Below are positions 1 through 33,296 of a stretch of 33,296 bases of DNA, one piece after another. How positions within the stretch are numbered: the stretch's first letter is position 1; the number at the start of each line of letters is the position of its first letter. Both the position numbers and the translations under genes were made by a program. The DNA comes from a bacterium (GTDB lineage: Bacteria; CAIWAD01): the NCBI GenBank assembly GCA_030685015.1, contig JAUXWS010000030.1, positions 1 to 33,296 of the forward strand. The letters run 5' to 3'. The notes under the pieces are model-generated. The model worked only from the letters and a program-made list of their open reading frames with translations. It was not told the DNA's origin and did no database searches.

Positions 1-126
1 GAGGCGACGCCGGACGGGGCGAGCGGGCGAGTGATCGCGAAACTCCGATGGTCAAGGTCCAGGCGGCGTAGATCCGGCCATCGTGCGGTGAAGGACGGCA
101 TGCTTAGCTGGGGAGATCCCGCCTTG
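1..126 (+). repeat. Direct repeat, copy 1 (group II intron domain I region)
   Basis: Aligns without gaps to 33171-33296, 115 of 126 bases identical. Both copies are on the plus strand and belong to the two group II introns. They are clearly distinct copies, so this is not an artificial overlap of a circular contig. Confidence 0.95.
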
Positions 127-413
127 GGCCTGAAAGGGCCACGCCGCGCAAGCGTCGGAGCGGTTAGTCAGCCGAGGCCGTCGTACATGCCACGAGACAG
201 GGAAGGGCCTAACGAAGAGGAGAGTGAAAGCCCTCGACCCTCGAAGGTGCCAGGCCACAGATGTCCGGATTGTAGGAGCTCCCGCTCCTGGATAAGGGTG
301 AAGCCCTGACAGGGGAGCAGAGTGTGGAAGCACTGACGGCGGGTAGAAATGGTGGACGCTCAGGCATGCTGGTGGCTGGCCAATGACCACCATGCGCGAC
401 CTCAACTCCTCGA

Positions 414-490
414 ACCGCCCGGTGCGGACCACATGCCGGGTGGTGTGGCAGGGGACCCCAGGGTTTCCTCCCTGGGGCCCCTATGCCGAT
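414..490 (+). ncRNA. Group II intron domains V and VI
   Basis: Domain V: ACCGCCCGG (414-422) pairs with CCGGGTGGT (436-444) around a distal loop; one pair is G-U. Domain VI: basal stem GGCA (447-450) with TGCC (484-487), then GGGG (451-454) with CCCC (478-481), then CCCCAGGG (456-463) with CCCTGGGG (470-477), loop at 464-469. T482 and A483 are unpaired on the 3' strand. A483 lies seven bases before the last intron base, as expected for the branch-point adenosine. The distal part of domain V (TGCGGACCACATG) looks one base shorter than the form I remember for this family, which could weaken catalysis; that comparison is from memory. Confidence 0.8.
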
Positions 491-1371
491 CAGCTCGGGC
501 ATCGGGCCGCAGCTGTGTGGCGAAGCGGGCCGGGGCGGCAAGGAGGTTTCCAGCAGGGCTACCGCCAGCTCGGCGGTCCATGTGTGCAAACGGCGATCCA
601 GTTCCGGATGCAGCCGCGCCAGACGCGCGGCGCTGCCCCGCGCCCGCCCGATGACGAGCAGGAGCTGGTTCGCCGCCACGATGTCGCCTGCCCGGACAAG
701 CAGGCGGGTGAGGGCCCTCCGCCGGGGAAGCCAGGCGGGCCAGGCGCACAGGCTCGACGCTGCCGGCCGGCGGCCTTGCCCTCCGTCACCAGATCCCGCA
801 GGACGGCAAGATGTTTCGACAGGGCGTGTCGGCGCCGACGAGCGCTTCGCAGTGCGCCCGCTGCGTGAGGATGGCATTGAAGAGCCGCGAGACACGGTGG
901 GCCAGCTCCGCGCGCGTCCGCTCGACCTCGTGGGCGCGGACCGCCACGGCCCATCGGGCGTGGCGGAGGGCGGGGCGGAGGCGTCCCGTGTGGAGAGGCA
1001 GGCTGGCCACCAGATCCCCGCCCACCAGGTGCCGCGTGAGGAGGGCGGGCTCGCTGGGCGTGGCCGCGGACACAAGGCGCTGCTCACATCGATGCTCGCT
1101 GAGGGTGGTCACGGCGTGCAGGTTGGGCCAGAGGGCGGCCGTGCTCGTCCAGCTGGGATTCCGCCAGGGTGACGGCGGTCCGCGCCGCCAAGAGTCCGGG
1201 ATTGGCGCGCAGCGCCAGCTCGATGGCCTGGGTCAGGTAAAGGGAATCCGGCGGGCTGCCTGGCGTGATGGGACGCTGGGCCGGCGCGTTGGGCGCCCCG
1301 GCCAGGATCATGACCATGGCTGCCGCCCGGGCAAAGGGCGGGAAAGAGCCCCGACGACGCCTGCCGATCAT
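491..1371 (-). pseudogene. Decayed TolC-family outer-membrane efflux gene, truncated by the intron
   Basis: The best start is ATG at 1371, preceded by GGAGGTGAAC, a strong ribosome binding site. The product opens with an arginine-rich signal peptide and then LTQAIELALRANPGLLAAR, the typical first repeat of TolC/outer-membrane-factor proteins. Homology-like text continues in other frames: ALWPNLHAVTTLSEHR after a shift near 1137-1147, then SKHLAVLRDLVTEGKAA after a shift near 820-824, then VEPVRLARLASPAEG, then LLVRAGDIVAANQLLLVIG. That makes at least four frame changes. The 3' half is missing because the group II intron begins at 490. It lies 60 bp downstream of arsG on the same strand and may once have been the outer-membrane channel of the ars operon. 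No functional product is expected. Confidence 0.75.
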
Positions 1372-1431
1372 GTTCACCTCCATCCCCTGACGCCCTCCCT
1401 GGGAAGGGGGAGCCTCGCCGGGAATGATTGA

Positions 1432-2127
1432 TCAGAACCCCAGCAAGGGAGCCCACACCCGCGTCCAGAGCAGGACCAGGCCCAGACCGATGAGGAAGAT
1501 GGCCGTGGCGAGGCGCATCCACCGTTCAAGGGTGGTGGCCTGGGCGAAGAGGCGGCCGACGGCGCCGGCGCTCCAGGCCAGGACAATGGCGAAGAGAGCC
1601 ACGGGCAGGGCCGTGCCCAGGCCATAGATGAGCGGAACCAGGATCGGTTGGCCGGAGGCCACGCCCAGCGGCAGCAAGCTGCCAAAATAGAGGGCGGCGG
1701 AGACGGGGCAGAAGGCCAGGGCGAAGAGAAGGCCCATGGGCAGGGCGCTCCACAGCCCCCAGCGTTCCCGGCGACCTTGCCAGGCTTGGTCATCCCTGCC
1801 ACCGCCCAGGCTGGGAAGCGGCAGCCAGCCGAGCAGGGCCAGGCCGATCAGGACCAGCAGCGGCCCCAACAGAGGGCTGAGCACGGTCTGCAGCCAGCGC
1901 GACAGACCAGGCGCCGAGAGAATCCCGAATCCGAGCAGGGCGCCCAGGGCGACGTAGGCCAGGCTGCGCCCGGTCGCGTAGAGCAGTCCGCCTCCCAACA
2001 CGCGCAGGGGCTTGGCTTCGCGGCCCAGGAAACTGATGGCGGCCAGGTTGGAAGCCAGCGGACAGGGACTGATCGCCGTGAGCAGGCCCAGCCACAAGGC
2101 GCCACCCACCCAGCCGATCGTCTCCAT
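1432..2127 (-). CDS. arsG: ArsG-like aromatic arsenical efflux permease (CcdA/DsbD-type membrane protein)
   Basis: A 231-residue polytopic membrane protein with about six hydrophobic segments, of the DsbD/CcdA transmembrane type. A cysteine followed by proline occurs in the first helix (ISPCPLASN) and again in the fourth (AFCPVSAAL), the cysteine pair typical of this fold. Its position directly after ArsE- and ArsF-like genes matches the ArsEFG group, in which ArsG exports trivalent amino-aromatic arsenicals made from nitro-aromatic arsenicals. The start is either ATG 2127 or GTG 2130; both overlap the arsF stop (GTGATG), implying translational coupling. The family and position are seen; the transported substrate is inferred from the named family. 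A cytochrome c biogenesis CcdA role is the alternative but fits the neighbours less well. Confidence 0.8.
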   Translation of the reverse strand: METIGWVGGALWLGLLTAISPCPLASNLAAISFLGREAKPLRVLGGGLLYATGRSLAYVALGALLGFGILSAPGLSRWLQTVLSPLLGPLLVLIGLALLGWLPLPSLGGGRDDQAWQGRRERWGLWSALPMGLLFALAFCPVSAALYFGSLLPLGVASGQPILVPLIYGLGTALPVALFAIVLAWSAGAVGRLFAQATTLERWMRLATAIFLIGLGLVLLWTRVWAPLLGF

Positions 2128-2600
2128 CACTGGCCCCCGGCCAGGAAGGCCTGGGTTTCCTGGAAGACGTACTCACGGAAGCCGACTGGATCACGCACCA
2201 ATTCCCAGGTGCGGGGCAGCAGTTTCCAGCGCCCATAGGGGCCGCGATCATCCGTGAGGACCAGACAGGCGGAGACCAGGCCAAAATCCTCGGCATAATG
2301 CTCGTGGACCGGCTCATCCACGTTGAGGGAGGCGAACTGCAGGCTTCCCGCCTCGATCTGCCGCGCGAAATCCTCGCGGATGGCCCGGGCGGCCTGCTCC
2401 TCGATGGAATTGCAGGTCTCGCAGCGGAAGGTGCCGTGCAGGTAGAGCAGTTTGACCGATCCGGTCGGGCCCGCCACCGCCAGGGAATCCGCCGCCGCCA
2501 GCCTCCCGGTTTGGCGCCCCAGTTTCTGCAGGCCGAAAGCGCCCAGGCTGGCCACCACCGCCAGCAACAACAGGTTGCGTACAATCGTCTTGGTTGTCAT
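2127..2600 (-). CDS. arsF: ArsF-like nitroreductase subunit
   Basis: 157 residues. An N-terminal membrane anchor or signal (NLLLLAVVASLGAFGLQKL) is followed by a thioredoxin-like region with YLHGTFRCETCNSIEEQA, a CxxC motif directly after the first beta strand. This arrangement matches the family named ArsF, described as working with ArsE in reducing the nitro group of nitrophenyl arsenicals before export by ArsG. ATG at 2600 has GAGGAAACGGGAC upstream; the gene lies 13 bp after arsE and overlaps arsG. It probably acts at the membrane, possibly with its redox domain outside the cytoplasm. Anchor, CxxC and context are seen; the reaction is known only for the family. Confidence 0.8.
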   Translation of the reverse strand: MTTKTIVRNLLLLAVVASLGAFGLQKLGRQTGRLAAADSLAVAGPTGSVKLLYLHGTFRCETCNSIEEQAARAIREDFARQIEAGSLQFASLNVDEPVHEHYAEDFGLVSACLVLTDDRGPYGRWKLLPRTWELVRDPVGFREYVFQETQAFLAGGQ

Positions 2601-32987: not shown

Positions 32988-33015
32988 AGGCTGCCCCCCG
33001 AGGGGCAGCCTATTC
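32988..33015 (+). terminator. Rho-independent terminator after the lipoprotein gene
   Basis: AGGCTGCCCC pairs perfectly with GGGGCAGCCT around a CCGA loop (32988-33011), followed by ATTCC. The group II intron begins eight bases past the stem, so the T-tract expected after the stem may have been separated from it by the insertion. Confidence 0.75.
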
Positions 33016-33019
33016 CGTG

Positions 33020-33296
33020 GTGCGCCCAGCGTGGGCGCCGTCCTGGAGGTGCAAGTCCTCCCGTGAGCAGACCAACGTGAGCGAAGTGAAGCGCAGCTGC
33101 GGAAGGGCGACCGACCGTGGGAAGGACGCGTGGAGCGTAAACCGCGGGTGGATGAACAAGAACCGGATAGGAGGCGACGCCGGACAGGGCGAGCGGGCAC
33201 AGGATCGCAAAGCTCCGATGGTCAAGGTCCAGGCGGCGTAGATCCGGCCATCGTGCGGTGAAGGACGGTGTTCTTGGCTGGGGAGATCCCGCCTTG
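33020..33296 (+). mobile_element. Group II intron, 5' portion
   Basis: The sequence switches at 33020 to GTGCGCCCAGCGTGGGCGCC, a group II intron 5' end (GTGCG), followed by domain I elements such as GGTGCAAGTCCTCCCGTGAGC and AACGTGAGCGAAGTGAAGCG. From 33171 on it matches the start of the window. The window stops inside the intron, so whether this copy carries a reverse transcriptase cannot be seen. It sits directly downstream of a transcription terminator, the insertion preference known for class C introns; the class itself was not proven. Confidence 0.85.
33171..33296 (+). repeat. Direct repeat, copy 2 (group II intron domain I region)
   Basis: Matches 1-126 at 115 of 126 positions, same orientation. 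Recombination between the two copies could delete or circularise the intervening 33 kb. Confidence 0.95.

Follow-up and report, generated by a model that had tools for sequence, protein, structure and literature searches.

A group IIC intron copy with a deleted reverse transcriptase gene and an altered domain V in a multi-copy bacterial intron family

The first 490 bases of the window, i.e., of the whole stretch of 33,296 bases that was analysed, hold the 3' part of a group II intron copy that lacks most of its reverse transcriptase (RT) gene and carries lesions in its ribozyme, most evidently in domain V, while RT genes of the same family occur elsewhere in the genome. We consider it probable that this copy belongs to a group IIC family as a non-autonomous, ORF-deleted member, was once mobilised in trans and has since decayed. 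The window represents the entire contig C30 of genome G000 (3.61 Mb in 105 contigs), and both of its ends are occupied by copies of one intron family detected with Rfam RF02001. The match at 1-102 (34.8 bits) covers model positions 70-170 and is cut at its 5' side, placing position 1 inside domain I; a second match (96.3 bits) lies at 33101-33273. The features discussed below are:

1..490, + strand: 3' three quarters of an ORF-less group IIC intron (intron positions 152-641), from RF02001 and the overlap with contig C20
29..33, + strand: EBS1 candidate GAGTG, complementary at five of five positions to IBS1 CACTC, the last five bases of the 5' exon on C20
139..208, + strand: domain II-III region, a weak match to RF01998 (28.0 bits, below the gathering score of 35)
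261..369, + strand: remnant of the RT start, approximately 36 codons with an in-frame stop TAG at 273-275, from sequence and translation compared with copies C15e and C92
370..411, + strand: deletion join at which the RT body is absent, from comparison with sibling copies; the same join occurs in copy C38
412..444, + strand: domain V, 33 nt instead of 34 nt, with the distal helix altered at approximately 425-433, from sequence comparison and fold prediction
446..490, + strand: domain VI with unpaired A483 and GAT 3' end, from fold prediction and covariance model R1
32988..33011, + strand: terminator-like hairpin before the second intron copy, from hairpin prediction
33020..33296, + strand: 5' 277 bases of a second family copy (C30e), cut by the contig end, from RF02001 (96.3 bits) and overlaps

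The missing 151 bases of the 5' end of the intron are situated on contig C20, the end of which equals window positions 1-141 exactly over all 141 bases; fifteen contig ends were compared and no other end fits. In a search of the genome with this stretch, C20 was the sole other place at 100% identity, the other copies among the matches listed reaching 82-94%. Joining C20 and C30 yields an intron of 641 nt, from GTGCGCCCAGC to ATGCCGAT, in agreement with an earlier examination of the window from its letters alone (the sequence-only reading), which had assigned the 5' part to a neighbouring contig and had reconstructed a length of approximately 640 bases. The 141-base overlap is the sole basis of this join, and the flanks in two genomes of the same genus and one of the same family gave no confirmation. 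In the sister genome G001 separate contigs carry the C20 and C30 flanks, and 1.1 kb beyond the C20-like stretch showed no match to window 491-2600; among the matches listed for G002 and G003, none to the C20 flank was convincing. The end of contig C15 overlaps by 141 bases with both C30e and contig C21. When window 1-490 was compared with 60 genomes (G000 included), two gave a match, i.e., G000 and its sister G002; the latter also contains two 3' ends of the same intron family near contig ends (L055 and L056), with differing 3' flanks. Downstream of the intron, the minus strand of 491-1372 gave no match in a Pfam search; by eye it resembles what we take to be the start of a frameshift-broken outer-membrane efflux, TolC-like protein.

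Domains I-IV and V-VI follow each other in order on one strand (RF02001 at 1-102, model R1 at 412-490), and the sequence is unbroken from domain I through domain VI. None of the six RT matches in the genome lies on C30, all being on other contigs. The sequence-only reading thus correctly reported the absence of an RT between domains I and V, and a copy with an RT at this locus, the case that it had named as speaking against it, was not seen. Two RT genes with a YADD motif do occur in the genome, as had been anticipated for a maturase of the same family, on contigs C31 (352 aa, its 5' part cut off by the contig end) and C25 (395 aa, truncated at its 5' end and with the 5' part of the intron absent); a whole RT gene of the family was not seen among the contigs of the genome. 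Both exceed the cut-offs of TIGR04416 and of Pfam RVT_1 and GIIM, the only domains found, a match to an endonuclease domain being absent. The nearest solved relative of the C31 RT is the GsI-IIC RT (370 bits, E 8.4e-110; next best 267 bits), and by this best solved match, rather than by a tree, the family RT groups with those of IIC introns. A scan of genome contigs delivered 517 relatives, 80 of which (64-72% identical to the C31 RT) were kept. All 57 relatives inspected for it possess CGC at positions 5-7 of domain V and a G-U pair, the triad being assigned by analogy with the Oceanobacillus iheyensis intron as described in passages of PMC3669008.

The target sites point in the same direction. 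All six intron 5' ends seen have a stable hairpin in the 50 bases upstream (-23.2 to -30.5 kcal/mol). However, 9 to 158 of 2000 random 50-mers from the window were equally stable, so that three of the hairpins rank in the top 0.5% and three in the top 1.8-7.9%; given the G+C-richness of this DNA, hairpin energy by itself offers modest evidence. On the 5' exon of the window copy the candidate EBS1 pairs completely, as listed above. Five copies in G000 can be tested in this way; at their best offset, C92 and C30e pair at four positions, C21e at four plus a wobble and C15s at few, and the C92 loop fits the exon of C30e slightly better than its own. In 59 of the 61 de-duplicated relatives covariation was evident, with a mean pairing score of 8.29 for the own exon against a mean of 7.11 and a maximum of 7.59 in 2000 shuffles. 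Insertion of group IIC introns after terminators has been reported (PMC4424553 and PMC8919778), and both the hairpin position and the EBS1-IBS1 pairing fit group IIC.

Comparison with the sibling copies indicates that the window copy is a deletion derivative of an RT-bearing intron. Besides the start remnant, the sequence from approximately 396 onwards resembles what lies between the RT gene and domain V in C31 and C25. Since a full-length relative (L058, 1641 to 3480) measures 1840 bases, approximately 1.2 kb is missing from the window copy. Its domain IV retains nothing of an RT/maturase other than the start remnant with its stop, and it is therefore not an autonomous retroelement. An intron that was ancestrally ORF-less and never contained an RT gene would also lack an RT match, as the window copy does, but this is contradicted by the RT start at 261-369 and the post-RT bases at approximately 396-411, and we regard it as highly improbable. 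An inverted repeat in the join, TGGTGG/CCACCA, was considered as a new domain IV hairpin and discarded, as CCACCAT is instead predicted to pair with an upstream ATGGTGG. The exact pattern of the join was absent from the viral contigs searched.

The same join is found in C38, which has another 3' flank and is itself cut by a contig end. A second RT deletion is common to four further copies, C15e (C15:26188), C26 (C26:13382), C50 (C50:212) and C77 (C77:299), in which the RT after RHTTRR is fused to domain V and whose 3' flanks all differ from one another. Instead of YADD, C15e and C77 have CADD; in C26 more is missing, and C50 begins past that point. The two lineages thus differ, nearly the whole RT being gone in C30/C38 and the C-terminal part in the other four. 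Beyond this family, C63:8862-8964 holds a group II intron from another family, the sole RF00029 match in the genome. Among the relatives, L111 (a Rhodoferax MAG) shows a tandem pair, in which a full-length IIC intron begins at 435, directly behind an ORF-less one whose end occupies 1-433 and whose 5' part is off the contig. In L074 and L097 the sequence past domain V no longer follows the family consensus, and another partial match occurs approximately 1.4 kb further on, as if something were inserted after domain V.

Domain V is where the window copy stands apart. RF00029 misses the domain V of this family and, therefore, a separate covariance model (R1) was built from 57 of 58 reference relatives (L083 being omitted from the alignment). 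It recovers window 412-490 with 73.2 bits (E 1.2e-13 for the genome), a score lower than those of six of the seven other copies in G000 (C25, 90.6; C31, 90.1; C15e and C26, 87; C50, 85.3; C77, 80.2; C38, 66.0); a weak match on C34 (18.4 bits) was set aside. Of the 78 R1 matches in the relatives, at 76 of the 80 loci and including the 57 sequences used to build the model, 69 outscore the window copy. Distal domain V of the window copy reads GCGGACCAC, whereas the seven other 3' ends in the genome retain GCGGACCCGC, and the change is confined to the window copy among these eight; the suspicion in the sequence-only reading that this part might be altered proved right. All 66 domain V matches counted in the relatives retain GCGGA[C/A]CCGC; eight of 74 pattern matches were dropped from this count for want of a recognised 3' end (one is not an intron), and eight of the 80 loci had no match. 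In two of the dropped rows (L093 and L104) the loop differs, though not in the way of the window copy. The predicted fold of the window copy has lost most of the distal helix and its two-base bulge is destabilised, the probability that the second bulge base is unpaired being 0.10, against 0.97-0.99 in the siblings. Hence it does not possess the 34-nt domain V with two-base bulge and distal helix, and it remains a degenerate group II member by descent. The bulge belongs to the active site, according to PMC3669008, which cites work in which mutations of the bulge reportedly block splicing.

Domain VI has fared better. It is predicted to be well paired, with A483 and U482 unpaired and the intron ending in GAT at 490, consistent with the earlier description of an intact domain with a bulged A483. 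Its distal arm differs in sequence from that of the siblings and is still fully paired. C38 shows a different picture, with a sound domain V and three bases lost at the foot of domain VI. In the 5' part the comparison covered positions at which 61 relatives (68 with enough 5' coverage, reduced by removal of duplicates) agree to at least 95%, and the window copy deviates at 12 of 155. Five of these deviations (intron 37, 193, 251, 315 and 333) are private, i.e., occur in no other copy in G000 that covers them, with private changes at three positions that are invariant in 61 of 61 relatives. Window position 182, A in all 61 relatives, is a C. The relatives themselves deviate at a median of 2 and a maximum of 13 positions, and the excess of the window copy is small, since its siblings also deviate (C92, 7 of 155; C15e, 7 of 101; C15s, 9 of 140; C30e, 8 of 126; C21e, 7 of 126). 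Judged from these comparisons, the whole family in G000 has drifted, the 5' part of the window copy only somewhat more so, and the domain V change is its distinguishing lesion.

The most plausible history, in our view, is that a full-length copy lost approximately 1.2 kb, comprising most of the RT gene, within domain IV, and that a sibling RT then acted on the RNA of the deleted copy, whose domain V was still sound, splicing it and inserting it into new terminator sites by reverse splicing. Such mobilisation in trans, for which a sibling RT is the most likely agent by analogy with the ORF-less introns of Thermosynechococcus elongatus, would have produced copies with the same deletion at different places. 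The window copy would have been inserted on C20/C30 after a terminator-like hairpin, by pairing of GAGUG with CACUC, and would later have decayed, domain V included. We infer the reason for this decay from its position, because a copy after a terminator-like hairpin need not splice for its host. Today it is probably a poorly splicing intron or a dead relic. The dependence on a maturase elsewhere that the sequence-only reading deemed necessary is, consequently, unsupported for the present day, given the damaged domain V, the five private changes and the post-hairpin position.

It could be argued that the window copy is still active, with a sibling RT/maturase providing splicing and mobility in trans in spite of the domain V change. 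Domain VI and the EBS1-IBS1 pairing are intact, most conserved positions are retained, family RT genes are present in the genome, and forcing the two-base bulge upon its domain V costs only 1.6 kcal/mol. The restriction of the distal domain V alteration to this copy among eight, the low probability of an unpaired second bulge base, and the private changes at otherwise invariant positions all argue against activity, which we consider unlikely. An assembly artefact, in which the start of C30 combines pieces of different copies and the ORF-less intron, or its unusual domain V, is not real, is also rather unlikely. Many contigs do terminate in intron copies, and C30 and C38 are identical over window 301-428 (128 bases) and then show many differences in the last 62 positions, a pattern that either recombination among copies or a chimeric assembly could produce. 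This sharp divergence, together with the contig-end cut of C38, weakens the argument that the same deletion occurs at two places. However, the deletion join recurs in C38, the exactness of the C20 overlap sets it apart from the other copies listed, and the domain VI arm of C30 is fully paired in spite of its differing sequence.

The closest precedent is formed by the ORF-less introns of T. elongatus. As the relevant parts of PMC2882425 describe for TeI3, a common internal RT deletion left N- and C-terminal remnants in a broken frame, RT-bearing relatives occur in the same genome, and the EBS varies among copies, mostly fitting their own sites. There, however, 17 ORF-less copies with IIB-type pairing are known, and mobility by RTs of other introns was assayed, whereas the family in G000 belongs to IIC, lies after terminator-like hairpins, comprises two copies with the C30 deletion and is known from sequence alone. 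With bacterial group IIC introns such as that of the GsI-IIC RT it shares RT similarity, the RVT_1 and GIIM domains only, the CGC of domain V and post-hairpin insertion, although the window copy has no RT and its domain V is altered. PMC4424553 describes bacterial ORF-less introns as rare, and, as there, an ORF-less copy co-occurs with related RT genes; the window copy differs in belonging to a multi-copy family, the copies seen being mostly broken or incomplete, and in being damaged in its ribozyme.

We make no assertion of priority for ORF-less IIC introns. An ORF-deleted intron of this sort is an already known and fairly ordinary genomic parasite, and the single window copy adds little by itself. 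It is conceivable, though we would stop somewhat short of favouring it, that a IIC intron repeatedly gave rise to RT-deleted lineages (C30/C38 and C15e/C26/C50/C77), which spread after the deletion by means of a sibling RT and were retargeted by changes in EBS1; this would constitute the IIC counterpart of the T. elongatus case.
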